Part shown: positions 5,542 to 26,331 of the stretch, piece by piece | How the letters are laid out: every line of letters begins with the position of its first letter | Position numbering within the stretch: the stretch's first letter is position 1 | Source of the DNA: Gemmataceae bacterium | GTDB taxonomy: Bacteria > Planctomycetota > Planctomycetia > Gemmatales > Gemmataceae | Length of the DNA stretch: 44,591 nucleotides | NCBI GenBank assembly: GCA_019694755.1 | Contig: JAIBBI010000028.1 | Coordinates: 1-44,591, forward strand | Reading direction: 5' to 3' | Translations under genes and position numbers: made by a program | Notes under the pieces: generated by a model | Databases searched by the model: none | Told to the model about the DNA's origin: nothing | The model's input: only the letters and a program-made list of their open reading frames with translations

Positions 5542-5550
5542 CATGAGCCA

Positions 5551-7225: not shown

Positions 7226-7920
7226 ACGGGGCGATACCGACAATCCCAGCGGGGCGGCACCGCACGATCCAGTTGCAAAAGTCGCTGCTCGACCGGAACG
7301 CGACCCTGGCGGCCGATAATCGGGAGTTGTTCCAGCGGCACCGCGTATTCGCCGTCAACTTCGTCTCGGGGCCTGGTGCGGGGAAGACGGCGATCATCGG
7401 TCGCCTGCTCGATGAACTAGGCCAACGGCTGCGGATCGGAGTCATCGTCGGCGATCTCGCCACGGATAACGATGCCCAGCGACTGGCCGGTCGGTCGGCC
7501 CCGGTCCTCCAGATCACGACGGGGACGCTGTGCCATCTCGATGCGGGAATGGTTCGAAAATCGCTCGAACAGTTCCGATTGGAAGACCTCGACTTGCTCA
7601 TAATCGAAAACGTCGGGAATCTGGTCTGCCCGGCCGGATTCGAACTCGGCGAATCGTTGCGGGTCGTTGTCACGGCAACGACGGAAGGGGAAGACAAGCC
7701 GGTCAAATACCCCGTCATGTTTCGTACCGCGGACGTGGTGCTTTTGAACAAAATGGATCTGGCCGAAGTCGCGGGCTTCGATCTTCATCAGGCCCGCCGG
7801 TGGATAGAACTGGCTGCTCCGCACGCCCTCCGATTCGAAATGTCCGCGCGGACAGGAGCCGGGGTCGCGGAATGGCACGAATACCTCGAGCGGCGGATTC
7901 ATGACAGCGTCGCCGGTTGA
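7222..7920 (+). CDS. hypB: Hydrogenase nickel-insertion GTPase HypB
   Basis: 232 residues, a SIMIBI-class GTPase that drives nickel transfer into the large subunit. The P-loop is SGPGAGKT (49-56), followed by VGDLATDNDAQRL and the guanine-specificity motif NKMD (176-179). The metal site of the G domain is intact: Cys104-His105 (GTLCHLDAG) and Cys136 (NLVCPAGF). The N-terminal CxxCxC nickel site and the His-rich stretch found in some HypB are absent. The start is GTG 7222, overlapping the hypA stop; the 3' end overlaps hypF by 20 nt. Because its partner HypA lacks the zinc domain, the HypA-HypB interaction may differ from that in model organisms. Confidence 0.94.
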   Translation: MNGAIPTIPAGRHRTIQLQKSLLDRNATLAADNRELFQRHRVFAVNFVSGPGAGKTAIIGRLLDELGQRLRIGVIVGDLATDNDAQRLAGRSAPVLQITTGTLCHLDAGMVRKSLEQFRLEDLDLLIIENVGNLVCPAGFELGESLRVVVTATTEGEDKPVKYPVMFRTADVVLLNKMDLAEVAGFDLHQARRWIELAAPHALRFEMSARTGAGVAEWHEYLERRIHDSVAG

Positions 7921-10198: not shown

Positions 10199-10412
10199 AG
10201 TTGACCCGCCGACGGAGTTCGCCACGGGTCTGGTCGAGTTCGCCGGCGTCCGGCGGCGGGTCAGCCTCGCCTGCGTGCCTGAGGCCGTGCCGGGTGACTA
10301 CGTTCTCATCCATGCGGGACTCGCTTTGAGCAGGATCGACGAGGAAGAAGCCGGGCGGGTATTCGAGATGATCCGGGCGCTGGATCCGGGGGCCCTCGAT
10401 GAAGTTCGTTGA
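10167..10412 (+). CDS. hypC: Hydrogenase maturation chaperone HypC
   Basis: 81 residues, a small chaperone that carries the Fe(CN)2CO group with HypD to the large subunit. The N-terminus MCLGIPG with the essential Cys2 fixes the start at ATG 10167, although the open frame extends 60 nt further upstream. AGGAG lies 8 nt before this ATG, inside hypF. The central beta-barrel pattern (GLVEFAGVRRRVSLACVPE, then GDYVLIHAGLALSRIDEEEA) is typical of HypC. It overlaps hypF by 32 nt and hypD by 14 nt. Confidence 0.95.
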   Translation: MCLGIPGLLVEVDPPTEFATGLVEFAGVRRRVSLACVPEAVPGDYVLIHAGLALSRIDEEEAGRVFEMIRALDPGALDEVR

Positions 10413-11508
10413 CGAGTACCGCGACGCGGAAGGTGCGCGTGCGCTGGCCGAGGGTATTCGCCGGGCGGTCACGCGTCCTTGGACCATCATGGAGGTGTGT
10501 GGCGGGCAGACGCATGCCATCATGAAATTCGGTATTGACCAGATGCTGCCGGGCGAGATCCGCGTGATCCACGGCCCGGGCTGTCCGGTCTGCGTGACCC
10601 CGCAGGAGTACATCGACTCGGCCATCGACCTTGCCTGTCGGCGCAAAGTCATGCTGTGTTCGTTCGGCGACATGCTCCGCGTGCCGGGAAGTGCCGGCAG
10701 CCTGTTGCAGGCACCCTCGCGAGGCGCGGACGTTCGCACTGTGTATTCACCGCTGGATGCCGTCGAAATTGCCGCGTTGAATCCTGCCCGCGAAGTCGTG
10801 TTTTTCGCCGTGGGCTTTGAAACGACCGCCCCGGTGACCGCACTGGCCGTCACGCAGGCACGAGCCCGAGGGTTAAACAACTTCTCCTTACTCGTGGCTC
10901 ATGTCACTGTGCCGGGGGCGTTGCGGGCATTGCTCGGAATGCCGGGCAACACCGTGCAGGGGATTCTGGCAGCGGGGCACGTCTGCACGGTGATGGGTTG
11001 GCACGAGTACGTCAGCCTGGCGGACGGGTTTCGTGTCCCGATCGTCGTGACCGGATTCGAGCCGGTCGATCTACTCGAGGGCATTCTTCGCACCGTCCGG
11101 CAACTGGAAGCGGGCCGGCACGTGGTTGAGAACCAGTATTCCCGAGCCGTCAGAGAGTTCGGAAATGAGTCCGCCCGCCGACTGATCGACTCCGTTTATC
11201 GGGTGGCCGACTGTTCGTGGCGTGGCCTGGGAATCATCCCGCAGGGCGGGTTACGGCTCCGACCCGAATGGTGCGACTATGACGCGGAAGTCAGATTCGG
11301 GCGGTGCGAGAATGGTCTGGAGCCGGAGTCCGAATGCCGGGCGGGTGATGTCTTGCGCGGGCTAATCCGCCCCGACCAATGTCCGGCCTTCGGTACGCGC
11401 TGTCACCCCGAGAACCCACTGGGCGCACCCATGGTATCATCCGAAGGGGCGTGCGCCGCTTATTGGAAGTACGGTCGGCGATCCGACCTTGGTAGTCCCG
11501 CGTCATGA
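10399..11508 (+). CDS. hypD: Hydrogenase maturation Fe-S protein HypD
   Basis: 369 residues, the scaffold on which the Fe(CN)2CO unit is assembled. Conserved family motifs are all present: MEVCGGQTH (31-39, Cys34), HGPGCPVCVTP (58-68, Cys62 and Cys65), VGFETTAP, GHVCTVMG, GFEPVDLLEGI, the Fe-S binding C-terminal part (WRGLGIIPQGGLRL, CPAFGTRCHPENPLGAPM) and SEGACAAYWKYGR. Cys62 and Cys65 correspond to the redox-active pair of the family. It is coupled to hypC upstream and to hypE downstream (4-nt overlap). Confidence 0.96.
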   Translation: MKFVDEYRDAEGARALAEGIRRAVTRPWTIMEVCGGQTHAIMKFGIDQMLPGEIRVIHGPGCPVCVTPQEYIDSAIDLACRRKVMLCSFGDMLRVPGSAGSLLQAPSRGADVRTVYSPLDAVEIAALNPAREVVFFAVGFETTAPVTALAVTQARARGLNNFSLLVAHVTVPGALRALLGMPGNTVQGILAAGHVCTVMGWHEYVSLADGFRVPIVVTGFEPVDLLEGILRTVRQLEAGRHVVENQYSRAVREFGNESARRLIDSVYRVADCSWRGLGIIPQGGLRLRPEWCDYDAEVRFGRCENGLEPESECRAGDVLRGLIRPDQCPAFGTRCHPENPLGAPMVSSEGACAAYWKYGRRSDLGSPAS

Positions 11509-12551
11509 GCCAGTTGCCGATCGAATGCCCGGTAGAGTACGCGAATTCGGATGTCGTCCTGCTCGCGCACGGTGAAGGAGCACGTGCGACGCGACGCCTG
11601 ATTCAGTCGGTTATTCTTCCGTATTTCGCGAACGACAGGATTGCGCCCCTCGGCGACTCGGCCGTGCTGCCGTCGGTGGATGGCCGACTGGCCATAACGA
11701 CGGACGGCTTTGTCGTGACACCTCTGAACTTCCCGGGCGGCGACATCGGACGGCTGGCGGTCTGCGGCACGGTCAATGATCTCGTCGTCGCGGGCGCGGA
11801 TCCGCTTTACCTCACGCTGGGGCTGATCCTGGAAGAAGGGCTGCCGCTGGCGACTCTACACTGCATTCTTGCTTCGGTCCGCGATGCGGCCCGGGAGGCC
11901 GACGTGTTGGTCGTCGCCGGCGACACCAAGGTCGTCCCGCGAGGCGCCGCCGACGGCGCGTTCATCACCTCGGCCGGTATCGGGCGCATCAGGACCGACC
12001 TCGATCTGAGTCCGGACAATGTGCGGCCCGGCGATGCCGTGATTGTCTCGGGAACGCTGGGCGATCACGGGATCACGGTGTTGGCCGAGCGCGAGGGGTT
12101 CCAGTTCCAGGGGGCGTTGCAGTCCGACTGTGGCAGCATTCGTCCGATCGTCCTTCGGATGATCGAGGCCGGCGTGTCGCCACGATGGATGCGCGACCCG
12201 ACTCGGGGTGGTCTCGCGTCCGTGCTGCACGAACTGGCTGAGACGGCCCGGCTCACATTGGAAGTGGACGAGTCCGCTTTGCCCGTCTCGCCTGTCGTGC
12301 GAGGCGCATGCGAGTTGCTCGGGCTCGACCCGATCTACGTCGCTAACGAAGGAAAACTCGTCGCCCTGGTCCCGGGCGAACAGGCGGACGCTACCGTGGC
12401 CGCGATGCGGCGGGACGCTCTGGGCCGCGAAGCCAGAGTCGTGGGTCGAGTGATGGCGCGGGGAACGCCGGGCGTCATCATGCGTACCGCTCTGGGAAGT
12501 CGCCGGGTGCTGGATGAGCCCCAAGGCTCGCCCCTGCCGCGAATCTGTTGA
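11505..12551 (+). CDS. hypE: Carbamoyl-dehydratase HypE
   Basis: 348 residues, an ATP-dependent enzyme of the PurM/ThiL fold. It dehydrates its own C-terminal thiocarboxamide to thiocyanate, the cyanide donor. The C-terminus is PRIC, the universally required ending; Cys348 is the carbamoylated residue. The ATP-binding pattern LGDSAVLPSVDGRLAITTDGFVV and the motif DPTRGGLASVLHELAE support it. The start ATG 11505 lies in the 4-nt overlap with the hypD stop. The hydrogenase protease gene follows. Confidence 0.96.
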   Translation: MSQLPIECPVEYANSDVVLLAHGEGARATRRLIQSVILPYFANDRIAPLGDSAVLPSVDGRLAITTDGFVVTPLNFPGGDIGRLAVCGTVNDLVVAGADPLYLTLGLILEEGLPLATLHCILASVRDAAREADVLVVAGDTKVVPRGAADGAFITSAGIGRIRTDLDLSPDNVRPGDAVIVSGTLGDHGITVLAEREGFQFQGALQSDCGSIRPIVLRMIEAGVSPRWMRDPTRGGLASVLHELAETARLTLEVDESALPVSPVVRGACELLGLDPIYVANEGKLVALVPGEQADATVAAMRRDALGREARVVGRVMARGTPGVIMRTALGSRRVLDEPQGSPLPRIC

Positions 12552-12559
12552 GGCTCACC

Positions 12560-13048
12560 GTGAATCCAGTCAGGTGGCTCATCGTTGGAATTGGCAACGA
12601 ATCGCGGGGCGACGATGGCGTCGGCAAGGCGGTGTGCGAACAACTGCGCGCGAAGGCGATTGCCGCACTCGAAACGTTGACTGTACACCAGTTAACGCCC
12701 GAACTCGCGGAGCCGATCTCCCGCGCGGCCGGCGTGATCTTTGTCGATGCCGACATATCTTCAACGGATTTCGCGTCGATTCGCCCGGTCGGCCCGGAAT
12801 CGCCCCGGTCCGGAATGACACATGCCGTGTCGCCAGAATCGGTGATCATGCTGGTGAAGACGGCGTTCGGCCGGAGTCCGCCGGCCTGGCTTCTGTCGAT
12901 CCCGATCGATGACATCGCGATTCACGTTGGCCTGAGTCTCCGGGCTCGAGCGGGGGTCGATCAGGCCGTTGCAATTATCCTCGGAGTCTTGATGGCGGGT
13001 GCTGTTACAAGTGAGACACGAGACGGCGAAGAACGTCTTTCATGCTGA
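12560..13048 (+). CDS. hoxW: [NiFe]-hydrogenase maturation endopeptidase (HoxW/HycI type)
   Basis: 162 residues from GTG 12560. A TTG at 12548, overlapping the hypE stop, is an alternative; GAGG before the GTG decides for the later start. The family removes the C-terminal tail of the nickel-loaded large subunit. Nickel-sensing residues are visible: the acidic pair in GIGNESRGDDGVG, Asp in VIFVDADI, and His in MTHAVSPES, equivalent to the Glu/Asp/His ligands known in HybD. The substrate should be the 25-residue tail of HoxH from the same operon. Its last 44 nt overlap, tail to tail, the end of the CBS-domain gene on the other strand, so transcription of the two converges. Assignment to HoxW rather than another HycI/HyaD-type protease rests on operon context. 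Confidence 0.85.
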   Translation: MNPVRWLIVGIGNESRGDDGVGKAVCEQLRAKAIAALETLTVHQLTPELAEPISRAAGVIFVDADISSTDFASIRPVGPESPRSGMTHAVSPESVIMLVKTAFGRSPPAWLLSIPIDDIAIHVGLSLRARAGVDQAVAIILGVLMAGAVTSETRDGEERLSC

Positions 13049-13490
13049 CGACGCCGATCAACCGTCCGTCGGTGTCGCGAACGAACACGCGATGGACGTT
13101 CAGGTCGAGCATCTTTCGAACGCAATCTTTCAGTGAATCGGTCCGGGCTACAGCGAACACTCCCGGAGTCATGATCGATTCGACGGCCGGCGCGTCGGGC
13201 TCAGGCGTCACGCTGCGCTCGGGGCGGGGTCGGCCCCCGGTGCCGACCCTCGCCTCCGAGGCCCCAGCCGCGTCGATCCGACGCGACTGATCCCGCTCAA
13301 ACTGAACGATGTCGAATTGGCTCACGGTCCCGACAAGTCGGCCGGCAGCGTCGATGACCGGGAGCGCACTCACACCCTGAGCCGCCATGATGCTGATCGC
13401 GTCTGAAACCGCGGCCGTGGCCACCACCGCAAGCGGGTTGGAGGTCATGATGTCACCGGCAGACAGACCAGCGGCCGCGGAAATAGACAT
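13005..13490 (-). CDS. Double CBS-domain protein
   Basis: 161 residues: two CBS domains (about 14-66 and 105-160) joined by a Pro/Arg-rich linker (about 70-100). The first holds MTSNPLAVVATAAV and SALPVIDAAGRLVGTVSQFD; the second MTPGVFAVARTDSLKD and HRVFVRDTDGRLIGVVSMKD. Such pairs form a Bateman module that binds adenine nucleotides. There is no effector domain, so it probably senses energy state for a partner. The frame extends to ATG 13523, but ATG 13490 has GGAG at 7-nt spacing and a more normal N-terminus. It lies 41 nt downstream of hsp20 and is probably co-transcribed from the sigma-54 promoter. Confidence 0.85.
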   Translation of the reverse strand: MSISAAAGLSAGDIMTSNPLAVVATAAVSDAISIMAAQGVSALPVIDAAGRLVGTVSQFDIVQFERDQSRRIDAAGASEARVGTGGRPRPERSVTPEPDAPAVESIMTPGVFAVARTDSLKDCVRKMLDLNVHRVFVRDTDGRLIGVVSMKDVLRRLVSHL

Positions 13491-13531
13491 GGTGACTCCA
13501 GTCGTTTTCGAGAAACAAATCAAATGCGCCG

Positions 13532-13981
13532 TCAGGACTTTTCACTGACCTGGACTTTTGTCGCTGTAGCCCCCGATTTCTTCGGTATGGCAATCATGAA
13601 GACGCCCTTATCGCAGGTCGCTTTGATTTTCTGGACGTCCGCTTCCGCGGGAAGCGGGATGGATCGGTAAAACTGACCGAAGAATCGCTCGGATCGGTGA
13701 TACTGCTTTTGCTTGTCGTCGTGCTGTTCTTTCTTTTCGCCGCGAATGACGAGATTTATGTTGTCGATTGTAATGTCGACATCCTGTACGGCGACGCCCG
13801 GGAGTTCGGCCTTCACTGTCATGGATTCCGGCGTTTCCTCGACATCGACGTGGGGCGACCATTTCTGGAATGCCGACTCAAATGTGCTAGTTCCGACCAT
13901 TCGCTGCAACGCCTGATCCATTTCGCCGCGGAGAGCCTCAAAGAAGCTCGGGAATTGTCGGAACGGTGTGATCTGGGACAT
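13532..13981 (-). CDS. Small heat-shock protein, Hsp20/alpha-crystallin family
   Basis: 149 residues, an ATP-independent holdase chaperone. The alpha-crystallin domain runs from about residue 44 (HVDVEETPESMTVKAELPGV) to about 137, with FFGQFYRSIPLP and the end GVFMIAIPKK. The first 40 residues are the variable N-terminal arm. The ribosome-binding site is very strong: AAGGAGGTG at 13997-13989, 7 nt before the start. A perfect sigma-54 promoter lies 38 bp upstream of the start codon. The CBS-domain gene follows in the same direction. The family assignment is secure. Confidence 0.95.
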   Translation of the reverse strand: MSQITPFRQFPSFFEALRGEMDQALQRMVGTSTFESAFQKWSPHVDVEETPESMTVKAELPGVAVQDVDITIDNINLVIRGEKKEQHDDKQKQYHRSERFFGQFYRSIPLPAEADVQKIKATCDKGVFMIAIPKKSGATATKVQVSEKS

Positions 13982-14018
13982 ATCGGGACACCTCCTTGAA
14001 CGCGTGGCATGATAGACC

Positions 14019-14034
14019 GCAACTAGTGTGCCAA
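14019..14034 (-). promoter_or_regulatory. Sigma-54 (-24/-12) promoter for hsp20
   Basis: The minus strand reads TTGGCAC-ACTAG-TTGC, an exact match to the core TGGCAC-N5-TTGC. The GG and GC pairs have the required spacing. Initiation near 14007 would give a leader of about 25 nt that just includes the strong Shine-Dalgarno at 13997-13989. Site, leader and ribosome-binding site fit each other well. A sigma-54 promoter for hsp20 implies activation by an enhancer-binding protein rather than a sigma-32 or CIRCE type of control. Confidence 0.8.
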
Positions 14035-14206
14035 TTGCCGTGTAACGAAGACCGCCAGTGGAGGCAGTCAGAAATACACCGTGTGAGACTCAGGGGAAAT
14101 CAGGAATGGAAAGAGAATGACCACAGTATCAACGGATTTTCCACCTGATGGCTCATGCGCTTCCACTGATCGGACAGTACAATCTGCAGCAAGACGGGAG
14201 ATTGAA

Positions 14207-14944
14207 ATGCAAAATAGGCACTGGGTTTCTTGTTTCGCAGTTTTTTCCATCGTAGCCCTCTCTGTCTCCGGCATGACGCCGCCGACCCGATGCGTGCAAG
14301 ACAAGAGCGTAAGGCCAGGCATAAATGATCCGTTCCGCGACCCGGACGTGAAAGAGTGGGTGACCCGATTCGAAGGCGAGAGCCGGGAGACTTACGACAA
14401 ACGAAAGGAGATCGTGAAGGCGTGCGGCCTCAAGGCCGGGATGGCCGTGGCCGATGTCGGGGCCGGCACAGGCCTGTTCACCCGCCTGTTCGCGCAGGAG
14501 GTGGGCCGCGACGGCACGGTGTATGCCGTGGAGATCTCGCAGAAGTTCCTCGACCACATCGCCCAGTCGGCGAAAGCAATGGGAGTCACCAACGTCCGGA
14601 CCGTGCTGGGCAAGGACCTGTCCGTCGAATTGCCGGCTAACTCGGTCGACCTCGTGTTCATCTGTGATACTTACCACCACTTCGAATATCCCCACCGCAT
14701 GATGACCTCGATACACAAAGCGCTTAAGCCGGGCGGTCGGGTCGTCGTTGTCGACTTCATCCGGATCGCGGGCCAGAGTTCGGATTGGGTGATGAATCAC
14801 GTGCGGGCCGGCCAGGACGTCGTCGAGCGGGAAGTTGCCGAATGTGGATTCAAGAAAACCGGCGAGAAGGCCGGGATTCTGAAAGACAACTACATCGTTG
14901 TGTTTGAGAAGAAAGACCAGATGCCGGCCGCTGGCGGGAAATAG
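14207..14944 (+). CDS. Class I SAM-dependent methyltransferase with signal peptide
   Basis: 245 residues from ATG 14207. Earlier in-frame ATGs from 14117 exist, but GGGAG stands 8 nt before 14207, and starting there gives a signal peptide (MQNRHW, then the hydrophobic stretch VSCFAVFSIVALSVSG). The mature part is a Rossmann methyltransferase: motif I VADVGAGTGLFT (81-92), VYAVEIS (motif II), VDLVFICDTYHHF (post-II/motif IV region) and ALKPGGRVVVVDF (motif III region). The family methylates unknown substrates; export would put it where SAM is normally not available. It ends 3 nt from the end of crcB on the other strand. The upstream stretch 13982-14206 holds the hsp20 promoter; I found no clear promoter for this gene. 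Confidence 0.8.
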   Translation: MQNRHWVSCFAVFSIVALSVSGMTPPTRCVQDKSVRPGINDPFRDPDVKEWVTRFEGESRETYDKRKEIVKACGLKAGMAVADVGAGTGLFTRLFAQEVGRDGTVYAVEISQKFLDHIAQSAKAMGVTNVRTVLGKDLSVELPANSVDLVFICDTYHHFEYPHRMMTSIHKALKPGGRVVVVDFIRIAGQSSDWVMNHVRAGQDVVEREVAECGFKKTGEKAGILKDNYIVVFEKKDQMPAAGGK

Positions 14945-14947
14945 CCG

Positions 14948-15358
14948 CTAGGCGTGTCCCGTGCCGGCGAGCAGGACGCCGACCCGAACGGCTAGCAATC
15001 CGAGAAAGACGCTGCCCGCGAGGTAGGCAGCGCCAAGGATGCCGGATCCGTCTTTGAGGAGCAGGTAGGACTCGAATTCGTACGTGGAAAAGGTCGTGTA
15101 GGCTCCCGTGAATCCGACGGCGAGGGCCAGCCTCAGATCCTGTGCCTGAATCCACGAGTTTGCTGGGCCGGACAGCCTGTTGCCGATCAGAGTCATCAGC
15201 CAGCCGAGAAACATGCTTCCCGAAACGTTGATGAACAGTGTACCCCACGGGAATGCCGTGCCGCACCATCGGCCCATCACGACGGTGACAATCCACCGGG
15301 TCAGCCCGCCGACCGCGGACCCCGCCGCCACGAGCAGACACTGAAACAGGATTGTCAT
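14948..15358 (-). CDS. crcB: Fluoride channel CrcB/FluC
   Basis: 136 residues with four hydrophobic segments, a dual-topology fluoride-specific channel of the inner membrane. Family signatures are GGLTRW near the start, GTLFINVSGSMFLGW (the conserved Asn/Ser region) and GFTGAYTTFSTYEFE (Phe-box and central sodium-site region). The open frame continues upstream to 15403, but ATG 15358 has GGGAG at normal spacing and a typical N-terminus (MTILFQCLLVAAGSAVGG). It is the last gene of the leftward operon, 41 nt after the permease. I saw no fluoride riboswitch in front of it. Confidence 0.92.
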   Translation of the reverse strand: MTILFQCLLVAAGSAVGGLTRWIVTVVMGRWCGTAFPWGTLFINVSGSMFLGWLMTLIGNRLSGPANSWIQAQDLRLALAVGFTGAYTTFSTYEFESYLLLKDGSGILGAAYLAGSVFLGLLAVRVGVLLAGTGHA

Positions 15359-15399
15359 GTCCCGATCTCCCGAGTGGTATCGACCGTCGACCGGCCAAG

Positions 15400-16812
15400 T
15401 CACTTTGCCGATGCCTTAGCTCGACTCTCCGTCGATCGCGTCCAGTAAACGCCGAGGCCAACGGCGAAAGTCAGCACGGCCAGCCCCGTCACCTTGGCAA
15501 GGTACAAGGTAGTGTCCGGTTCCTCCGGCGGCGGAACGAGCGAGAGAATCATGGCCAGTATCGTTGTGACCAGGCCCGACACGGCGAGTATCTGAATCGC
15601 CAGTCGACGGCTAAACCTGTCCGGTCGGCCCGGCCCGGGATTACCGTGTTGCAACCGGATCGCGGCCGCGAAGACGAACAGGAACGGGATGAACGTCGGA
15701 ATCAGAGTCATGCTCTGAAAAACGTCGAACGCACCCTTTGTGGTCGTGCCCCATTGCCCGAGGACGATCAGGCCGGCGACAATCCCGGCCTGAAAGAGCA
15801 GGGCGACGTACGGAGTGCCCCAGCGGGGATGAAGTCGGCCGAACACCGCGGGGACGCAATGGGCGACTCCACCGACGAACGGCAACCGAGCGCTCGTCGC
15901 ACTCCAGGCGCCGACTTTGCCCAATTGCCCTACGACGACCAGAAAGGCTGCGAGCGGCAGCAATCCCGACACGCCGGCCCGGGTCGACGCGGTCTTGAAT
16001 GCCTGCATGAACCCTAGCGAGCCGGTCAGTTGATCCGCGGGGATCAGCACGACTACTGCCAGGGTCGCGACGATATTGGTCACGAGAACGAGGACGGCCG
16101 CGGCTACCAGAGCGGGGCCGATTCTCCGCCTCAGGTCCTGAATCTCGTCGCCGAGGATCGATGCGGCTTCCAGCCCCGTGAGACTCATGACGAGAACGGA
16201 CCACAGCAGCGCGTTTTTCATGTCGAGCTCTGGGACGAAGCTGGACGTGGTCATGGGGGTGACCGGTCCGTGGCGGGTCCACGCGACGACTGCGAGGACA
16301 ACGAGTCCGACCGCAGGCAGCCAGATCCCGGCCGCGCCGACATTGTGCAGCCATTTGCCGATATCCAACCCGACGATGTGAAGGGCCGTGACCAGAGCGA
16401 GGCACGCGAGCGAGACAGTCATGAAATAGGTCGGACTCTCCTGCAGGCTGACCCACGGATCGCCTCCGAGCGACAGGGCCGTCCCGGCAATGTAGTACAA
16501 CACGACGGTTAGAAATGGCAGATTGCAGAACCAGTAAAACCAGCCGGTGATGAAGCCTGCGAGATCGCCGAACGACTCCCGGCTCCAGACGTAAAGGCCA
16601 CCTTCACCGGGAAACCGCGCCGTCAGCGCGAGCACGCTGACGGCAAGAGGGAGAAAGAACATCATGCCGCTGACGCACCAGAATGTGACGCCGGCCGGGC
16701 CGGCCTCGGCCGCCCGCACGAACCAGATCACATTGAAGTTGGCGATGACGAAGAACAGGACGAGGTCGGCGAACCCCATGACGCGACGGAGTTCCGGAGT
16801 TCGCTGGTCCAT
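15400..16812 (-). CDS. APC-superfamily amino acid permease
   Basis: 470 residues, with about 12 predicted membrane helices by eye. It is a secondary transporter of amino acids or related amines. The first helix contains the unwound segment typical of the fold (FADLVLFFVIANFNVIWFV), followed by GEGGLYVWSRESFGDLAGFI, a recognised APC pattern in helix 3. Helix 6 has LTGLEAASILGDEIQD. GGGAG lies 7 nt before ATG 16812. It sits 38 nt downstream of the D-aminoacylase gene, so import of D-amino acids or their products is a reasonable guess. Substrate cannot be read from the sequence. Confidence 0.85.
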   Translation of the reverse strand: MDQRTPELRRVMGFADLVLFFVIANFNVIWFVRAAEAGPAGVTFWCVSGMMFFLPLAVSVLALTARFPGEGGLYVWSRESFGDLAGFITGWFYWFCNLPFLTVVLYYIAGTALSLGGDPWVSLQESPTYFMTVSLACLALVTALHIVGLDIGKWLHNVGAAGIWLPAVGLVVLAVVAWTRHGPVTPMTTSSFVPELDMKNALLWSVLVMSLTGLEAASILGDEIQDLRRRIGPALVAAAVLVLVTNIVATLAVVVLIPADQLTGSLGFMQAFKTASTRAGVSGLLPLAAFLVVVGQLGKVGAWSATSARLPFVGGVAHCVPAVFGRLHPRWGTPYVALLFQAGIVAGLIVLGQWGTTTKGAFDVFQSMTLIPTFIPFLFVFAAAIRLQHGNPGPGRPDRFSRRLAIQILAVSGLVTTILAMILSLVPPPEEPDTTLYLAKVTGLAVLTFAVGLGVYWTRSTESRAKASAK

Positions 16813-16850
16813 GGTCGGGCTCCCATCCGCAAGGAGAGGCTCGGGGCCGA

Positions 16851-18410
16851 CTACCGGGCGTTGCCGTGGCGGATCGCCCGGCCCGGCAACGCCGTCGTGC
16901 GCTCACCGGCATCGATGGCCAGTACGCCATTGACGAACAGGTAACGCACGCCGGGCGAGTACTGGTGCGGCTTGTCAAACGTCGCCAGGTCGCGGTAGCT
17001 TTTCGCATCGAACACGACAATGTCGGCCATGTAGCCGGGCTTGATGGCGCCGCGGTCCTTCAGACCGATGATGTCCGCCGGCAAGCCCGTGGCGCTGTGA
17101 ATGGCCCGGGCCAGCGGCACGATCTTGTCGTCGAGCGAATAACGACCGATCTTTCGAGGAAACGTGCCGTAGGACCGCGGGTGTGGTACCTGTTCGGAGG
17201 GCACGACCGCCCCGCCGTCACTCGCGGTCGCTACATACGGCTCCTTCATGATCAGGCGGACGTCTTCCTCGTTCATCGTGAGTCCGACCACCGACGCGCC
17301 GCCGTTCCGCTCGATCTCCAGCACGATATCGACCGGCGACTTCTTTTCCCTCAAAGCAATCGTGCCGAGCGTCTTGCCCTGCCAATCCGGCCGTGCTTTG
17401 TAGCGGGCGATAAGGAACGTCGTCCCGGCATCGTACTTGGCGATCGCGTCGCCGATGGCTTGCCGGTAGAGCGGTTCCTGTTGTGGGTCCGAAAGGCGAG
17501 CGAGATACTCGGCCTCCGTGCCCCGACGCAAGTGCGGCGGCAATGCGACGGCCGCCAGACCGGTGCTCCAGCCGAGGTAGGGGTATTGATCCGCGGTTAC
17601 CCGCTGGCCGCGGTTCCGTGCCTGACGAATGAGCCCGACGGCATCTCCAGACTTGCCCCAGACCGATTTTGCGCCGGCCTTCAGATGGGAGATGTGAACC
17701 GGTAACCCGGCCTGCTGGCCGATGGTTAATGCCTCCTCGATGGAACCGAGCAGGCCGGCCTCCTCATCTCGCATGTGAGTCGCATAAAGGCCGCCGTGCC
17801 CCGCCACGACACCGGCCAGCGCGATCAATTCGTCGGTCTTCGAATACGCCCCCGGCGTGTACTCCAGCCCCGACGACAAACCCCACGCGCCCTCGCGCAT
17901 GGCTTTGTCGACCAGTTGCTTCATGGCCGACAGTTCGTCGGCAGTTGGAGGCCGATCGGCGTTTCCGAGGACTTTTTCGCGGATGGAGTTGTGCGGCGCG
18001 AGATGCAAGACGTTGCAGCCGACACGGCCTTCGTCAAGTTTCTTCAGGTATTCGCCGGTGTCTACCGGCCCGCTGCCGCAGTTGCCGGTCACGACCGTGG
18101 TCACTCCCTGAGTCAGGTAGTTCAGCAGGGCCCGGCGTTCCGGTGTCGTAATGCCCGTGTTGTCGCAGTGCGTGTGCAGGTCGATGAAGCCGGGTGCGAG
18201 AATCAGGCCGGTGCCGTCGATGACTCTCGGAGTGCCGGCAACGGCAAACGCCCCGACCGCAGCGATTCGGTCGCCTTGGACGGCGACGTCCGCGATTCTC
18301 CCGGGATTGTCACTGCCGTCGAAGACCGTTGCGCCGCGGATCACGAAGTCGGCCTGCACCGGTACGTCCGGTGAGCCGAGCAGCACGATCAAAACAGCAA
18401 AGCAGTTCAT
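16851..18410 (-). CDS. Exported N-acyl-D-amino-acid deacylase (D-aminoacylase)
   Basis: 519 residues from ATG 18410, which has AAGGTGA upstream and opens a signal peptide (MNCFAVLIVLLGSPDVPVQA); the 72 nt of open frame before it are not convincing. It belongs to the amidohydrolase superfamily: small beta domain (DFVIRGATVFDGSDNPGRIADV), metal motif HTH (79-81), the D-aminoacylase Cys in VTGNCGSG (Cys111), HISHLKAG, ADQYPYLGWSTG, SDGGAV and the C-terminal GAIKPGYMADIVVFD. It removes acyl groups from N-acyl-D-amino acids; the signal peptide suggests a periplasmic location. It is placed 13 nt after the epimerase gene in the same operon. The exact acyl/amino-acid specificity is not visible. Confidence 0.87.
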   Translation of the reverse strand: MNCFAVLIVLLGSPDVPVQADFVIRGATVFDGSDNPGRIADVAVQGDRIAAVGAFAVAGTPRVIDGTGLILAPGFIDLHTHCDNTGITTPERRALLNYLTQGVTTVVTGNCGSGPVDTGEYLKKLDEGRVGCNVLHLAPHNSIREKVLGNADRPPTADELSAMKQLVDKAMREGAWGLSSGLEYTPGAYSKTDELIALAGVVAGHGGLYATHMRDEEAGLLGSIEEALTIGQQAGLPVHISHLKAGAKSVWGKSGDAVGLIRQARNRGQRVTADQYPYLGWSTGLAAVALPPHLRRGTEAEYLARLSDPQQEPLYRQAIGDAIAKYDAGTTFLIARYKARPDWQGKTLGTIALREKKSPVDIVLEIERNGGASVVGLTMNEEDVRLIMKEPYVATASDGGAVVPSEQVPHPRSYGTFPRKIGRYSLDDKIVPLARAIHSATGLPADIIGLKDRGAIKPGYMADIVVFDAKSYRDLATFDKPHQYSPGVRYLFVNGVLAIDAGERTTALPGRAIRHGNAR

Positions 18411-18423
18411 GGAGATTTCACCT

Positions 18424-19494
18424 TCAATTCCGGCGGGGCTCGATGCCGAGACCGGGCCCGGTCGGCGGATACAGCGTGCCATTCTCGAGCGGCAGGAGCG
18501 AGGCTGCGGGGTCGTTGATCAAGCCGAGATGCCCGTCGAGATCAGCGTATGTTGTCGAGGGGCAGGCGAGGGCCAAATGCAGCCCGGCCGCGATGCCCAG
18601 CGCCGATTCGTCCATGCAGCCGACCATGACTTCCAGGCCGGCCGCCCGGGCCACGGCTTCCACCTGCAATGCTTCCGCGATCCCGCCCGTCTTCATGAGC
18701 TTGACGTTGAGCATGTCGACCAGGCCGACTCGGGCCAACTGGAACGCGTCCTTCGCGTCAAACAGACACTCGTCGGCCATGACCGGCAGGAATCTCGCAC
18801 GTCGCACCTCGCCGAGCAACTCCGGCGCGTCGGCCGGCGTCGGTTGTTCGATGAATGCCACGCGGGCCGTAAGCGTCGCCCGGCCAAATCGCAGCGACTC
18901 TTCCACCGTGTAGCCCTGATTGGCATCGAAGCGTAACTCGATGCCGTCGCCGAACGTCTCGCGAACTCGATGCACCCGCTCGATATCCGAGTCGACATCG
19001 AGTCCGCCTTTCAACTTGAGGCAGTCGAACCCGCTCTTGATCCACCGCCCGGCCGATTCCAGCGTCTGGTCCAGAGGCAGAATGCCAATGGTGATACTGG
19101 TGCGGATTCGGTCACGGCTGCCGCCGAGCAACCTCCAAAGCGGTAGATCGACCAACTTGCCGATCAGGTCATAAATCGCCATGTCGATGCAGGCGAGGGC
19201 CGACGGTTGCCGACCCAGGGCACATCTCAGGTTACGGAGCAGCGAATTGCACTGCCTCGGATCGCCGCCTTGCAGCATGGGAACCGCGACGGAATCGATC
19301 GCGGAAATGACCATCTCGGCCGTCTCACCGGTGACCTCGTGGTCGCACCCCGCCGTGCCATAGCCGACCAGGCCGGTATCCGTCTCCAGGCGCAGTAATG
19401 CGAGTTCCGACTTGTCGTACTGCCCGTACGCGACGGCGTACGGCACTTCCTGCGATACCGGAACTGTCCAGGATTCGACGCGTGTGATTCTCAT
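18424..19494 (-). CDS. dgcA: Enolase-superfamily epimerase, DgcA-like N-acetyl-D-glutamate racemase or dipeptide epimerase
   Basis: 356 residues of the muconate-lactonizing/dipeptide-epimerase subgroup. Catalytic features: the KxK base in FDCLKLKGG, metal ligands Asp in LRFDANQGY, Glu in AFIEQPTP and Asp in VMADECLF, and the opposite-face Lys in NVKLMKTGG. By sequence alone it would be called an L-Ala-D/L-Glu epimerase. Its partner is a DUF1611 protein whose stop codon overlaps its start (ATGA, 4 nt). That pairing is known from the DgcN-DgcA route, in which DgcN acetylates D-glutamate and DgcA racemises N-acetyl-D-glutamate. The frame extends upstream to 19599, but ATG 19494 starts the family fold (MRITRVESWTVPV). 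The substrate is inferred from context. Confidence 0.8.
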   Translation of the reverse strand: MRITRVESWTVPVSQEVPYAVAYGQYDKSELALLRLETDTGLVGYGTAGCDHEVTGETAEMVISAIDSVAVPMLQGGDPRQCNSLLRNLRCALGRQPSALACIDMAIYDLIGKLVDLPLWRLLGGSRDRIRTSITIGILPLDQTLESAGRWIKSGFDCLKLKGGLDVDSDIERVHRVRETFGDGIELRFDANQGYTVEESLRFGRATLTARVAFIEQPTPADAPELLGEVRRARFLPVMADECLFDAKDAFQLARVGLVDMLNVKLMKTGGIAEALQVEAVARAAGLEVMVGCMDESALGIAAGLHLALACPSTTYADLDGHLGLINDPAASLLPLENGTLYPPTGPGLGIEPRRN

Positions 19495-20573
19495 TTCGGC
19501 GCCGGCCTGTTGGAAAGCAGCGCGGCCACGATTGGCTGTGGCCCGTGAATGAGCACATCGCAGGCCGGAAGTCCCGTCGCCGCCGAGATGGAAGTACATG
19601 CAGCGTCGACCGCGGCCCGATCCAGGTCTTCGTGGTTGATGGTGACGCCGACCACGCGACTGGTTGAAACAAGTTCGATCGCCTGAATCTGCTTTTCGAG
19701 CGGGGCCACCGGGCAGCCGGGGAAGCCATCGTACTCCCGGCGGGCCGGCGCGTGCTGCATGACGACCAGTTCAGGTCGGCACGCGGCCAGAATCTCGAAC
19801 CCGCCCGGATAGGCCGGGTGCATCAGGCTTCCCTGACCCTCGATGACGATGACGTCGGGCCGGCTCGCATTCCACGCCGACCAGACGGCATGTTCGAGTT
19901 CTCCTGCGACGAAATCGTTGATCAGCGAATCGAGAGTGATCGAATACTGAGCCCCCTGCAGCCACGCCGTCTGCCCGGTGCCGACCATCTCGGCGGTCAG
20001 CCCTGCCGCACGCAGTCCGTCGATGAGCGTCCAGGCCGTGGTCCGTTTCCCGACGGCTGAATCGGTTCCGAGTACGGCCACCTTCAGCGATGTGACGTCT
20101 TTGATCTTGCCCGAATAGAAATGGAGTTGGGAGCGGTCGGGGGGCTTGCGGACATCGCGAATGTTCACGTGGTGCCGTCGGGCCAACTCGGCGAGTTCGG
20201 GGTCATCGCTCAGGAACGAATGAAGGCCGGAATCGACGTGCAGCCCGAGCGCCATTGCCTGTCGGACTGCTGCTCGGGCGTTATCGTCCAGTTGGCCACC
20301 GTCGGGCGCAAGGCCAATGACAAAGTGCGTTGCCGGCCGGCCGGCGGATTCACAGACCCGGCACGCGTCCGTGAGGCTGGCGACGATGGGGATGCCATTT
20401 GCACGTCCGTCGAGTGCCTGCCCGGCATCGTCCCCGGCCCGCTTCGAGTCGATGACGGCCGCGACGTCGTAACGCCGTGTCCGCCGGACAAGGCCGTGAG
20501 CCGTCTTCCCGGTCGTCGTGCCGAACGCGGCTTCGCAGTACACCACGGCACGTCCGTCCGGTCGCTCCGGCAT
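19491..20573 (-). CDS. dgcN: DUF1611 family protein, DgcN-like D-glutamate N-acetyltransferase
   Basis: 360 residues from ATG 20573 (GGAG at 9 nt; a start at 20603 is possible). The N-terminal Rossmann-like half has VYCEAAFGTTTGKTAHGLVR and HVDSGLHSFLSDDPEL. The C-terminal P-loop-like half has LGTDSAVGKRTTAW (Walker A pattern), EMVGTGQTAWLQGAQ and VIEGQGSLMHPAYPG. These are the conserved blocks of DUF1611. A family member, DgcN, has been shown in other bacteria to N-acetylate D-glutamate and to be encoded next to an enolase-superfamily racemase, exactly as here. It is the first gene of the leftward operon. The enzymatic call is by family and context; the family also has members without assigned activity. 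Confidence 0.78.
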   Translation of the reverse strand: MPERPDGRAVVYCEAAFGTTTGKTAHGLVRRTRRYDVAAVIDSKRAGDDAGQALDGRANGIPIVASLTDACRVCESAGRPATHFVIGLAPDGGQLDDNARAAVRQAMALGLHVDSGLHSFLSDDPELAELARRHHVNIRDVRKPPDRSQLHFYSGKIKDVTSLKVAVLGTDSAVGKRTTAWTLIDGLRAAGLTAEMVGTGQTAWLQGAQYSITLDSLINDFVAGELEHAVWSAWNASRPDVIVIEGQGSLMHPAYPGGFEILAACRPELVVMQHAPARREYDGFPGCPVAPLEKQIQAIELVSTSRVVGVTINHEDLDRAAVDAACTSISAATGLPACDVLIHGPQPIVAALLSNRPAPK

Positions 20574-20921: not shown

Positions 20922-21332
20922 CTATACCTCCGCTTCAGGTCGCCATCCATCCTGAATGCGGTTGATCAGCAATGGCATGCTCCAAAACTCATACAGCGAC
21001 AGTTTCATGGACTCCTCGCTCAACTCGATTGGCTGAGCTTCCTGTCCGTCATAGATCAGAAGCCATTTATGAAAGTTCTCCGTGCCATGAAGGCCATGCC
21101 TGATGCGCATCGGAAGTGGAGCTTCAAGCCGTGCCGGCACCGTTACTGAACCGACGATTTTCGCGTCATTCGGTTCCACAAAGCCCCTTCGCCACACAAG
21201 ATACGTGAAGAACCGTTCGTTCATTTCGGTCAACGTATTTAGGGGTTCGGGACGTGCTTTGAAGACGCCATCAATGATCCTCACCAGTGGCCCCATGAGT
21301 GGGCTTCGATAGATGCACTGGGCATACGCCAA
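20922..21332 (-). CDS. Hypothetical protein, possibly 5'-truncated
   Basis: 136 residues with a TTG as the only usable start (21332). I do not recognise a function. The protein reads like a compact soluble domain (AYAQCIYRSPLMGPLVRIIDG, WLLIYDGQEAQPIELSEES, MPLLINRIQDGWRP), without signal peptide or membrane segment. Translation upstream of the TTG continues with family-like residues (VVEIKIRAG) until an in-frame TAA at 21371-21369 beside a T5 run. The true N-terminus may therefore have been lost by a frameshift, or the gene may use a rare start. There is no good Shine-Dalgarno. It stands alone, bracketed by the paired GC-rich hairpins, with lower GC than its neighbours. Confidence 0.5.
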   Translation of the reverse strand: MAYAQCIYRSPLMGPLVRIIDGVFKARPEPLNTLTEMNERFFTYLVWRRGFVEPNDAKIVGSVTVPARLEAPLPMRIRHGLHGTENFHKWLLIYDGQEAQPIELSEESMKLSLYEFWSMPLLINRIQDGWRPEAEV

Positions 21333-21754: not shown

Positions 21755-22262
21755 CTAAATCGCTTGCAAAAACCGCAGCCGGAACTGCAGGAAGTCACTG
21801 GGTCCTACGATCCCGTCGCCGTCGAAGTCGAACGCCGGGTTGTTCAGGCCCAGGCCCAGCCGGAAAGCGAGGAAGTCGACCGAGTCGACGCGAGCGTCGC
21901 CGTTGCTGTCGCCGAAGAGGCGATGGAAGTTGGCGACGTAGTCCCCGCCGGCCAGACCGTCGGCATCGCCGTCGAGCGCCTCGATGCCCAGCACCTGATT
22001 GCTCAGCACCGTCAGAGAATACCGCCCATCGACGAGCGACCCGAACTGCGTCCCCGGCCCGGAAAACGTCAACGTCACGGTGGTCGCGGTGCCGGTCGTC
22101 ACCGCGGCCGACAGCGCGACCGTCTCGCTCCCGCGCCGCACCACAAACGCCCCGGCCGGGTCCCCCGCAAACATCACCGGCTGATCGAACGTCACGGTCA
22201 AAGTCCGCACCACCGACCGCTGCGCGGAGCCATCCGCCACCTTAATCGAGGTAATGGTCGGC
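21755..22262 (-). repeat. C-terminal surface cassette, copy 1
   Basis: Codes for the last ~170 residues of the propeller protein: an Ig-like strand region beginning TSIKVADGSAQRS, then L-x-D-G-R-Y-S-L-T-V, G-D-Y, R-L-F-G-D and two EF-like loops ending FLQFRLRFLQAI. The same cassette closes the genes at 25824, 34846 and 34967. It is the most diverged of the four copies in its first loop (LGLGLNNPAFDFDGDG). Confidence 0.75.
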
Positions 22263-25200
22263 GGAAGGGTGACGTATGCGAAGACGTCGGTATACCGGTT
22301 GAGATCATCGGTAACGAGGTTCGTCGCTTCGCTCGTATACGCGATCACCGTCCCGTTGTGGTTGATGGTCAGCGATCGGTGCGAGTCGTTGCTCCCAACA
22401 TTGAAATTGGAAACATCGAAGCTGGCGAGACGCGATTTCCCGTTGAGCCGGTCGTAGAGCATGACGTTGTAGGTGTTGCCGGTCGAAGGAAGCACGAGCC
22501 CGGACACGACGTCCGTCGCCGACGCCTGATAGGCAACGAACCGACCATCGCCGCTGATCGTCGGAAGTCGGCTGTCGCCGTTGCCGCCCGCCGTACTCGC
22601 GCTGACGGCGTGGCTTACCAGTACGTTGCTGCCGGTCACTCGATCGTAAAGTAAGACGTTTTCGTCGTCCGGGTTGCTGGTGCCGGCTGAGAAGCCGGCG
22701 ACGAGATTCTGCGCCAGGCTTGCGTAGACGATGAACCGCCCGTCGGCACTGACGTATCGTCCGCCGGAGTTGTCCAGGCTCCCCGCCCAGAAGGAACTGG
22801 CCAGGTTCCCCGCGGAATTGGCCGTGCCGGCCGCGTGGCTGACCAGCGTGACCGAGCCCGTTATGCAGTCGTAGACGAAAATGTCGTTGTCGGCATTGGT
22901 GTCGCTTTGTCCGGCCACGAGGTTGGTGGCCGCGCTCTGGAAGACGACGACGCTACCGTCCCGGCTGATCGAGGGATCGTTGCTGCCGCCGTTGCCGCCG
23001 GTAACGAGCGAAGCCGCGGAATGACTCACGAGCACGTTGGTATCGGTGTCCCGGTTGTACAGAATGACGTTGCGACCGCCGCCGACCATTCCGGGCACCA
23101 TGTTGGAAGAATTGGTCCAATAGGCCACGAACCGCCCGTCGCCACTCATGGAGCTCGCGAAGCTGGTGCTGTTGACCGTGGCCAGCGGTTGGCCGGGGAG
23201 GTGGCTCACAAGCCGATTGGTGCCCGACACGCGATCGTAAAGATAGACATCTGACCCGATGCCGTTTTCGACGATTGTCCCGTTGTTGTCGACCATGCCC
23301 GCCACGAGATCATTCGCAAGGCTCCGAAACGACACCCATCGGCCGTCGCTGCTGATGCTCAGGTACGCTCCCAGAATCGTGAAAAACGTTCCGCTGGTGT
23401 AGTTTCCGCCGACGTTGACCGTGCCGGCCTTCCGGCTGACCAGTTCGTTCACACCGGTCAGCCTGTCGTACAGGAAGATGTCGGTATTGGAGTAATAGTT
23501 CGCACTGAGCGGTCCGTTACTGTCCACGAAGCCGGGCACGAGGTCGGTTGCGTAGCTGCAATAGGCGACGTACCGCCCGTCGGCGCTGATCACCGCGAGG
23601 GTACTATCGGCATTCGCGGCCGTGGTCGGCGCGCCCGCGGCATGGCTCACCAGCACCGTCGTGCCCGCCGCCCGGTCGTGCAGAAAAACATCAAGGGTCC
23701 CTTTATCGCCGGTCACGGACCGGCCGGTGTCGATCTGGCCGGTCACGACATTCGCAGCGGAATCGGTGAAAACAACGAAACGACCGTCGGGAGTCTGATT
23801 GACCCAACCACTGTTGCCACCACCGGCAGTTTGCGATGGTCGTCCGAATCGCCGGGAAACGAGTGAGGTAGTGCCGGTGACGAGGTCCCTAAGGTACACA
23901 TCGGTAAACCCATTGGCGTCGCTTATCGTGGCCGACAGGTCGCTCGAATTGGATGCAATGGCGACGAATCTGCCGTCTCCACTCATCGCAGAAAACTGGG
24001 AGTTACCGTTGCCCCCGACGACATCGGACGCCATCCGTCCACTCAGTAGGCTCACCTGACCGGTAAGTCGATCGTAACGATATACGTCGTTTCCATTCAC
24101 ACCATTACGATCGACGAATCCTGCTACCAGGTCCGTACCGCAGCCAATGAACCGCACGAACCGGCCGTCCGCAGACAATTGGGGACCAGCCGCATCTTGG
24201 CCTCTATTGTCCGACATGGCGGCATTGCCAGCATTATGATTTACGAGTACGGTTTGCTCGCTCTCCCGGTCGTACAAGTAAAGATCACGGCTGGTTGCAG
24301 AATTTCCGTCGACAAATCCGGAGACTATGTTGTTCGCAAGACTCTGAAATACCACGAATCGCCCATCTGAGCTCATTGCTGTCGAATGCGACGTCCCATT
24401 ACCTCCAATCAAAGTGCTAGTCGCAGCGTGACTCACCAACCGCACCGCGCCAGTTTCACAATCGTACAACAATACCTGCAAGCCAGTCGACGTTGCCCCA
24501 GGGACAAGGTTGGTAGCGCGCGTCTGTACCCCAATCCACCTGCCGTCACCACTAATGTCAGTACCCAAGCTGCCACCATTCCCGCCAAATGGCACCGTAT
24601 TCCCCGACCGCGTAACAAGCACGTTTTTACCCGTCATTCGATCGTGGCGATACACGTCCGTTTTGCTCGTAGACGGGACGTTCGTCATGTCCGAGCCCGA
24701 ACTGGACACAACCACGAACCGCCCGTCATCAGACGCCCCGTAAACGAATGAAGAGCCGTTGCACGGGGCATTCGGATTGCCGTACTGATGATCCAATATT
24801 GCGACCTGACCCGAAACGACGTCATACGCATACGCATGCGTATTGACGGAGGAGGTCCCTCCGCCGGGATTGGGGAACGCGCCCACCAGGTCGACCGCGT
24901 TGCTCCGGAACACAATGAGGTTGCCACTTGCTGATATTATCGGTACCCCGGATTCTGCCGACGCGCTTGCAAATGGCGAATCGAACCGATGTGATATCAG
25001 CGAGCATTTGCTGATGACCCTGTCATAAATGTAAATGTTCAGGGGGTTGCCGGAAGCCGCGACAAATCCCGGAATCAGATTCGTTGCATTGCTTGTGAAC
25101 GCAATGAATCTCCCGTCGGCACTAATTGCCGGGAACCCCCCGCCAGCCGCCTGGCCAGGTGCAATCAATACTGTCCCGTTCGCCGTGACGTTGGTCGTCC

Positions 25201-25528
25201 CTTGGGCCGCGCTGACCAGGACGGTAGAGTTCTGTACGCGGTCATAAAGAAACAAGTCGCTTCCATTATTGGTATCGATCTGGCCGGCGATGACGTTGTC
25301 TGCGCTGCTCAGAAACGCTACATATCGTCCGTCGGCGCTCACGTTGGACGGGAGCCCGGTACCGAAACTGGGATCGAATTGCACGAAGGACTCGCCGTTG
25401 GCAGTGTCGGTCACCGTCGCCGGGTCGGCCCGGCTGATGGCGGCGTTGTAAGCGGCGGGCGCAATACGGCATTCAAGCCGTTGAAGGCCCAACGCCGAGC
25501 ATCGCCACCATTGCTTCCGCCTACCCAT
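21755..25528 (-). CDS. Surface protein with 16 PD40/TolB-like propeller repeats and dockerin-like C-terminus
   Basis: 1257 residues. After a basic N-terminus with LECRIAPA (about 18-25, the shared surface-protein motif) come 16 repeats of about 65 residues. Each has the pattern S-x-D-G-R-F/Y-V-x-F-x-S-x-A-x-N-L-V-x-G, then D-x-F-L-Y-D-R-x-T-G and L-V-S-x-x-x-G. Sixteen blades would make two eight-bladed beta-propellers. The C-terminal ~170 residues are an Ig-like domain (DGSAQRSVVRTLTVTFDQPV) and two calcium loops (DSNGDARVDSVDF and DFDGDGIVGPSDF), ending in FLQFRLRFLQAI. Presumably extracellular; there is no classical hydrophobic signal peptide. The start ATG 25528 has a -10-like box only 6 nt away, suggesting a leaderless mRNA. 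Ligand or enzymatic role unknown. Confidence 0.82.
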   Translation of the reverse strand: MGRRKQWWRCSALGLQRLECRIAPAAYNAAISRADPATVTDTANGESFVQFDPSFGTGLPSNVSADGRYVAFLSSADNVIAGQIDTNNGSDLFLYDRVQNSTVLVSAAQGTTNVTANGTVLIAPGQAAGGGFPAISADGRFIAFTSNATNLIPGFVAASGNPLNIYIYDRVISKCSLISHRFDSPFASASAESGVPIISASGNLIVFRSNAVDLVGAFPNPGGGTSSVNTHAYAYDVVSGQVAILDHQYGNPNAPCNGSSFVYGASDDGRFVVVSSSGSDMTNVPSTSKTDVYRHDRMTGKNVLVTRSGNTVPFGGNGGSLGTDISGDGRWIGVQTRATNLVPGATSTGLQVLLYDCETGAVRLVSHAATSTLIGGNGTSHSTAMSSDGRFVVFQSLANNIVSGFVDGNSATSRDLYLYDRESEQTVLVNHNAGNAAMSDNRGQDAAGPQLSADGRFVRFIGCGTDLVAGFVDRNGVNGNDVYRYDRLTGQVSLLSGRMASDVVGGNGNSQFSAMSGDGRFVAIASNSSDLSATISDANGFTDVYLRDLVTGTTSLVSRRFGRPSQTAGGGNSGWVNQTPDGRFVVFTDSAANVVTGQIDTGRSVTGDKGTLDVFLHDRAAGTTVLVSHAAGAPTTAANADSTLAVISADGRYVAYCSYATDLVPGFVDSNGPLSANYYSNTDIFLYDRLTGVNELVSRKAGTVNVGGNYTSGTFFTILGAYLSISSDGRWVSFRSLANDLVAGMVDNNGTIVENGIGSDVYLYDRVSGTNRLVSHLPGQPLATVNSTSFASSMSGDGRFVAYWTNSSNMVPGMVGGGRNVILYNRDTDTNVLVSHSAASLVTGGNGGSNDPSISRDGSVVVFQSAATNLVAGQSDTNADNDIFVYDCITGSVTLVSHAAGTANSAGNLASSFWAGSLDNSGGRYVSADGRFIVYASLAQNLVAGFSAGTSNPDDENVLLYDRVTGSNVLVSHAVSASTAGGNGDSRLPTISGDGRFVAYQASATDVVSGLVLPSTGNTYNVMLYDRLNGKSRLASFDVSNFNVGSNDSHRSLTINHNGTVIAYTSEATNLVTDDLNRYTDVFAYVTLPPTITSIKVADGSAQRSVVRTLTVTFDQPVMFAGDPAGAFVVRRGSETVALSAAVTTGTATTVTLTFSGPGTQFGSLVDGRYSLTVLSNQVLGIEALDGDADGLAGGDYVANFHRLFGDSNGDARVDSVDFLAFRLGLGLNNPAFDFDGDGIVGPSDFLQFRLRFLQAI

Positions 25529-25823: not shown

Positions 25824-26331
25824 TCACACCGACAGCAGGAACCGCAACCGGAATTGGAGGAAGTCTCCACTGTCCACCGTGCCGTTGCCGTCGGAGTCGA
25901 AGGGCGCACTGGAGCCCAGGAACGCCAGGCGGAAGGCGAGGAAGTCGACGCTGTTGACGGTGCCGTTGCCGTCGCTATCGCCGAACAGGCGGAACAGGCC
26001 GTTGGTGGGGGTGCCCGTGAGCACGTAGTCGTCGCCGGGGATGCCGTCGCTGTTGCCGTCGAACGCGCCGCCGTTGATCTGCGACGCCCGCAGCGTCAGC
26101 GTGTACCGTCCGTCGGCCAGCGAGCCCGCCGCCACAGGACCGGCCGCGAATGTCAGCGAGACCACGTTACCCGTCACTACCGCGTTCAGGGCCACCAGCG
26201 CGTTGTCCGATTGTCTCCGCAGTTGAAACGCGTCGGCCGGGTTGACGGGCAACGTCACGTTCTGGTTGAACCCGAGTTGCAGGCTCGTCACCCGCGACCG
26301 CTGGGCCGAGCCGTCGTTGACCGTGACTGCC
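25824..26331 (-). repeat. C-terminal surface cassette, copy 2
   Basis: Codes for the last ~169 residues of the hydrolase, in the same order as the other copies: DGSAQRSRVTSL, S-L-A-D-G-R-Y-T-L-T-L, G-D-D-Y-V-L, F-R-L-F-G-D, two EF-like loops and the end FLQFRLRFLLSV. It is nearly the same length as copy 1 (508 bp). Confidence 0.75.

Follow-up and report, generated by a model that had tools for sequence, protein, structure and literature searches.

The five leftward genes at positions 14948-20573 of the window, which is the whole stretch of 44,591 nucleotides that was analysed, form one tight unit, and the most likely reading, at about even odds, is that this unit serves D-amino-acid salvage via an N-acylated intermediate. 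An earlier sequence-only reading had proposed such a salvage operon with a DgcN-DgcA pair at its core. The salvage part was supported by the tight unit, the intact catalytic residues of the deacylase and the recurrence of deacylases and permeases beside the pair, but the identity of the pair with DgcN-DgcA was not. Because the pair belongs to another clade, D-glutamate is possibly a substrate, as one candidate only. The genes of the unit are as follows.

19491..20573, minus strand: DUF1611 protein, 360 aa (Pfam, AF2 model, fold matches, tree)
18424..19494, minus strand: enolase-superfamily epimerase of the dipeptide-epimerase/DgcA-like subgroup, 356 aa (Pfam, PDB relatives, motif table, tree)
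16851..18410, minus strand: D-aminoacylase-type amidohydrolase, probably exported, 519 aa (Pfam, PDB, alignment, tree)
15400..16812, minus strand: APC-superfamily amino acid permease (AA_permease_2), 470 aa (Pfam, NCBIfam)
14948..15358, minus strand: CrcB/Fluc-type fluoride channel, last in the unit, 136 aa (Pfam, NCBIfam, distribution)

The ORF list placed the five genes where the sequence-only reading had them, on the same strand, and its packing of 0-41 nt was matched by the coordinates. The spacings from DUF1611 to CrcB are -4, +13, +38 and +41 nt, the first being an overlap at ATGA between the DUF1611 and epimerase genes. The DUF1611 ORF has an alternative GTG start at 20603. All five families scored far over the cut-offs in the Pfam profile search (DUF1611_N, 92 bits; DUF1611_C, 218; MR_MLE_C, 181; Amidohydro_3, 100; AA_permease_2, 149; CRCB, 86). 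The GC content is uniform across the five genes (62-65%), and base composition therefore gives no signal either way on recent transfer. A convergent methyltransferase-like gene (14117-14944, plus strand) terminates 3 nt past CrcB, and upstream a gap of about 320 nt is followed by an ORF without a Pfam match (20922-21332, minus strand). A promoter scan detected zero sigma-70-like sites against 1.5 expected by chance, which is uninformative in this organism.

Elsewhere in the window, a [NiFe]-hydrogenase cluster with maturation genes was recognized by eye at 4298-13048 (large subunit at 5551, HypF at 7901, HypD at 10399, HypE at 11505 and protease at 12548). Two giant proteins with an LExR..P-type N-terminus, also noted by eye, are encoded at 21755-25528 and 25824-27773, and the former ends in a dockerin-like stretch. 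Proteins of this kind are consistent with a planctomycete origin of the window.

The DUF1611 protein combines a Rossmann-like N-terminal domain with a SIMIBI P-loop C-terminal domain, carrying the P-loop GTDSAVGKRT at aa 169-178 and IEGQG at aa 244-248. The Walker A Lys and EGQG are near-invariant across 157 DUF1611 sequences, DgcN included, and may mean that ATP is used beyond the needs of a simple acetyl transfer. The AF2 model (pLDDT 95) matched 2obn (Z 42.8), 2g0t (Z 38.4) and, over its whole length with 324 residues spanned, DgcN 7xrj (Z 33.7), and the domain architecture (DUF1611_N plus DUF1611_C) and fold are those of DgcN. This match favors the strict DgcN-DgcA pathway, in which D-glutamate would be converted to N-acetyl-D-glutamate and then to N-acetyl-L-glutamate, the deacylase and permease supplying the D-glutamate. 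The same pathway is favored by the presence of both families in an order identical to that of DgcN-DgcA, by the best NCBIfam matches of the permease, which are GadC-type glutamate/GABA antiporters although all under cut-off, and by the broad application of the dgcN label, which has been assigned to Bacteroidetes and Woeseiales genomes too (PMC12363236).

The scores and trees, however, point away from it. The DUF1611 protein reached 162.5 bits with the DgcN equivalog NF041892 (cut-off, 480 bits), and the epimerase reached 151 bits with the DgcA equivalog NF042940 (cut-off, 400 bits). Residues T24 and R30, kept in 97% of the 157 DUF1611 sequences including that of the window, differ in the DgcN of locus L231. 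In the DUF1611 tree, the window protein falls in a PALP-linked clade of 14 rows, 13 of which are PALP-operon members (SH-aLRT 99). DgcN lies beyond a long branch from it (1.28, SH-aLRT 99), alongside DUF1611 proteins of the same class, with its exact placement unsure, as DgcN was represented by the L231 sequence alone and this is itself long-branched. The window epimerase falls in a 17-row clade that matches the PALP-linked clade of DUF1611 (SH-aLRT 99); both trees were of a quick type without bootstrap. With scores this low, a different well-supported clade and other partner genes, the assignment of the two proteins as DgcN and DgcA was not upheld, and the strict pathway is unlikely. A literature text search for DUF1611 gave matches that concern Dickeya and its phages.

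The epimerase has the motifs KLK (from aa 160), DANQ (190), EQP (216), ADE (240), KLMK (265-268) and DLD (318-320). It contains the KxK and Lys acid/base pair, the Asp/Glu/Asp Mg ligands and the DxD of dipeptide epimerases, and, like DgcA, it is encoded directly beside DUF1611. The closest solved relatives in the PDB search were the dipeptide epimerases 3rit, 3jva and 1jpm. The DxD pair, which contacts the amino group of the dipeptide, is kept in the window epimerase and in the partner epimerases, the exceptions being L141, which is unrelated, and L182, which is truncated (motif table). These features would suit a route in which the substrates of the epimerase are L-X-D-Y dipeptides derived from peptidoglycan or from other peptides, with DUF1611 as an ATP-using ligase-like enzyme rather than an acetyltransferase; the P-loop half of the DUF1611 model resembles BioD and ApbC/Mrp ATPases (Z about 14). 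However, DxD was rejected as proof of dipeptide-epimerase function and cannot separate N-acetyl from dipeptide substrates, because the DgcA of L231, which passes the NCBIfam cut-off, also has it. Furthermore, this type of epimerase needs no ligase partner, and no recognized dipeptidase is encoded among the genes of the unit, making the dipeptide route quite improbable.

A search of named genomes for DUF1611 relatives gave a list with 34 of the PALP-linked clade (L151-L183, L194), and their operons were counted by reading the neighborhood table, in which some contigs end early. The relatives, from Bacteroidota, Thermodesulfobacteriota, Acidobacteriota, Gemmatimonadota, Spirochaetota and Phycisphaerales, share 55-64% identity with the window protein. 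A PALP gene (PRK06381 threonine-synthase type) adjoins DUF1611 in 33 of the 34, and an epimerase 43-57% identical to that of the window is present in 27. A protein of about 500 aa that carries the motif SGGKDS occurs in 22, mostly with a creatininase domain that is either part of the same protein or comes directly after it. Searches of Pfam (above cut-off) and of PDB sequences gave no match for this protein, but its AF2 model (pLDDT 92.8) is similar to QatC (Z 14.6) and QueC (Z 13.8), so that a PP-loop ATPase is very probable. As an idea only, it might be likened to MurL, an AMP-forming epimerase (PMC8788868).

The conserved operon of PALP, DUF1611, PP-loop ATPase, creatininase (as a fusion with the ATPase or as the next gene) and epimerase spans many bacterial phyla (L151-L169, L181, L183 and L194, around 10000-14600; L122, 4352-10161), and the literature search found no description of it. 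In archaea (Thermoplasmata, Thermococcus, Thermoproteota and relatives), PALP, DUF1611 and the PP-loop protein occur without epimerase or creatininase (L186-L193, L195, L196, L198, L200, L201; PALP was not detected in L200). A third DUF1611 group pairs with an Orr-like PLP racemase (Ala_racemase_N) and not with the enolase-superfamily epimerase (L032-L035, L197, L202-L207, L209, L211-L230).

The nesting of both window proteins in PALP-linked clades raises the question of whether the pair is a remnant that still performs the reaction of the PALP operon, the deacylase and permease being merely neighbors. PALP, so regular beside DUF1611 in the listed relatives, is absent from the window, and the search of the genome itself gave only a weak PALP match (26%) and a 27% match to the creatininase part alone. 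Against this, none of the five genes is disrupted and their catalytic residues are conserved; moreover, the order DUF1611-epimerase-deacylase recurs independently in planctomycete relatives. The remnant explanation is improbable. A further, tentative reading is that the pair and its clade constitute an undescribed stereo-inversion system, in which DUF1611, in most bacteria together with a PLP enzyme, a PP-loop ATPase of the AMP-forming type joined or next to a creatininase-like amide hydrolase, and an epimerase, would activate and invert an amino acid other than D-glutamate. In this genome, a reduced pair from that system would have been brought together with the native, exported deacylase and the rare permease to give a new salvage cassette.

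The neighborhoods of DUF1611 were sampled at 60 loci of the same class, and in most of them DUF1611 adjoins the epimerase. Because the two genes are adjacent there and in other phyla, their pairing is more than chance. Deacylases with HxH and NCG adjoin the pair in five same-class loci (L078, L080, L083, L087, L089; 49-50% identity), where the order is deacylase-DUF1611-epimerase. They also do so in L126, L130, L134 and L140, from other families of the phylum, where the order is DUF1611-epimerase-deacylase, as in the window. The pair thus has a deacylase with intact catalytic residues as its neighbor in three or more distinct lineages of planctomycetes. By a rough estimate for a genome of about 5000 genes, chance alone would bring a given deacylase to within three genes of DUF1611 in about 1 of 1000 cases. 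In the trees, the deacylases of these loci fall in separate clades and so do their DUF1611 proteins, indicating more than one assembly of the sets. The APC permease that follows the epimerase in L080 shares only 23% identity with the window permease in the best segment, which indicates independent recruitment. That the same parts apparently came together repeatedly and independently provides the strongest evidence for a shared pathway, and the recurrence of deacylase and APC permease beside DUF1611-epimerase pairs argues for D-amino-acid salvage. The same five-gene order, which the sequence-only reading would have sought in related genomes, was not found in the sampled class, phylum or named genomes.

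Several weaker matches were left out of the deacylase support, L067, L073, L137 and L184 being without the NCG cysteine and L074 and L081 without HxH. In the last two (L074, 11622-14417; L081, 11638-14445), an amidohydrolase is fused to a beta-lactamase domain and the metal-binding HxH is lost. Same-class pairs adjoin S66, M19, S11, M15 and M14 peptidases, kinds that act on peptidoglycan peptides. S66, M19, S11 and M14 peptidases are neighbors in L075 (3187-17795), beta-lactamase-fold/M15 proteins, as fusions, lie beside the pair in L042, L060, L067 and L074, and AraC/XylR-type regulators are also among the same-class neighbors.

The catalytic and anchor residues of the window deacylase are H79/H81, C111, H242, K244, D398 and R412. 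In the alignment, its subtype V ligands (HxH, Cys, His) and catalytic Asp are preserved, as are the anchors Tyr, Lys, Ser-Thr and Arg, which are common to D-aminoacylases (PMC12017989). Its conserved Ser is followed by Thr, as it is in D-aminoacylases but not in the GlcNAc1A deacetylase OngB, and this favors a D-aminoacylase. Activity on N-acyl-D-amino acids is predicted from these residues, the side-chain specificity not being readable from sequence. Characterized relatives also cleave some L-X-D-Y dipeptides, and such cleavage would allow the enzyme to act directly on peptidoglycan peptides. The export that the sequence-only reading had assumed is plausible rather than certain: visual inspection showed clear signals of the Sec, Tat or lipoprotein-like type in several homologues beside DUF1611, but the N-terminal signal of the window protein, MNCFAVLIVLLGSPDVPVQA, is short and without a basic n-region. 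The deacylase is common, being found in 130 of 198 class genomes with a second copy in the genome itself, and in its tree the window copy lies inside a clade of its own family and order (SH-aLRT 98), placing it as native to the family.

The distribution of the other genes differs. DUF1611 was found in 57 of 248 sampled class genomes, the window's own being the only one of its family. The permease was found in one other of 198 class genomes, at 28% identity, and in no other sampled genome of the family. The absence of these two from the other sampled genomes of the family, together with the native-type deacylase, indicates that the unit is a mosaic with a foreign-looking DUF1611, epimerase and permease, which is best read as an apparently acquired DUF1611-epimerase pair joined to a native deacylase and a rare permease. 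CrcB (CRCB domain, 85.6 bits against a Pfam cut-off of 32.9) is present in 113 of 198 class genomes, and the nearest homologues examined sit elsewhere; because of this it is best read as probably a passenger in the unit. An Rfam scan of the window gave no structured-RNA family, hence no fluoride riboswitch, which ruled out structured RNA as the reason for CrcB. Neither permease nor CrcB is a conserved partner in the loci compared.

Under the salvage reading, the exported deacylase would free D-amino acids outside the cytoplasm from N-acyl-D-amino acids and possibly from L-X-D-Y dipeptides, and the permease would import them. In the cytoplasm, the DUF1611 P-loop protein would N-acylate the D-amino acid and the epimerase would invert the alpha carbon of the acylated intermediate. 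The L-product would then be deacylated or, if it were N-acetyl-L-glutamate, enter arginine synthesis; ArgJ is encoded in the genome. The separate compartments of deacylation and acylation would prevent a futile cycle. Against the salvage reading, PALP, PP-loop ATPase and creatininase are not known enzymes of D-amino-acid salvage, the near-invariant Walker A Lys and EGQG of DUF1611 may point to such use of ATP, the signal peptide of the deacylase is weak, and the family-wide deacylase has a role of its own, since it mostly occurs without DUF1611.

These results indicate that DUF1611 beside an epimerase is insufficient for a DgcN-DgcA call. The DUF1611 family splits into at least three groups by partner (epimerase, Orr-like PLP racemase, and PALP with PP-loop protein), and D-glutamate catabolism may therefore be overestimated in surveys that treat DUF1611 homologues as dgcN. 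Deacylase, DUF1611, epimerase and permease, joined convergently, offer a concrete candidate route by which bound D-amino acids would be taken up, a process within organic-matter turnover that is poorly understood.

Compared with known systems, the window shares with DgcN-DgcA (EC 2.3.1.312 and EC 5.1.1.25; NF041892 and NF042940) the two families, their adjacency and the DgcN fold, but its proteins score far under the equivalog cut-offs and group in a different clade, and a deacylase, permease and CrcB are added. With the dipeptide (L-Ala-D/L-Glu) epimerases YcjG, YkfB, 3rit and 3jva, the window epimerase shares the catalytic Lys pair, Mg ligands and DxD. It differs in having a Gly at the position aligned with Arg24 of the Bacillus subtilis enzyme and DUF1611, not a peptidase, as partner. 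The deacylase has the subtype V ligands and substrate anchors in common with D-aminoacylase/N-acyl-D-glutamate deacylase (1m7j, 3gip) and OngB (9kb1), but it is probably exported and has a shorter loop after the Cys and a longer insertion region. The window DUF1611 and epimerase belong, by the identities given above, to the clades of the PALP operon; in place of its PALP, PP-loop protein and creatininase domain, the window unit has the deacylase, permease and CrcB.
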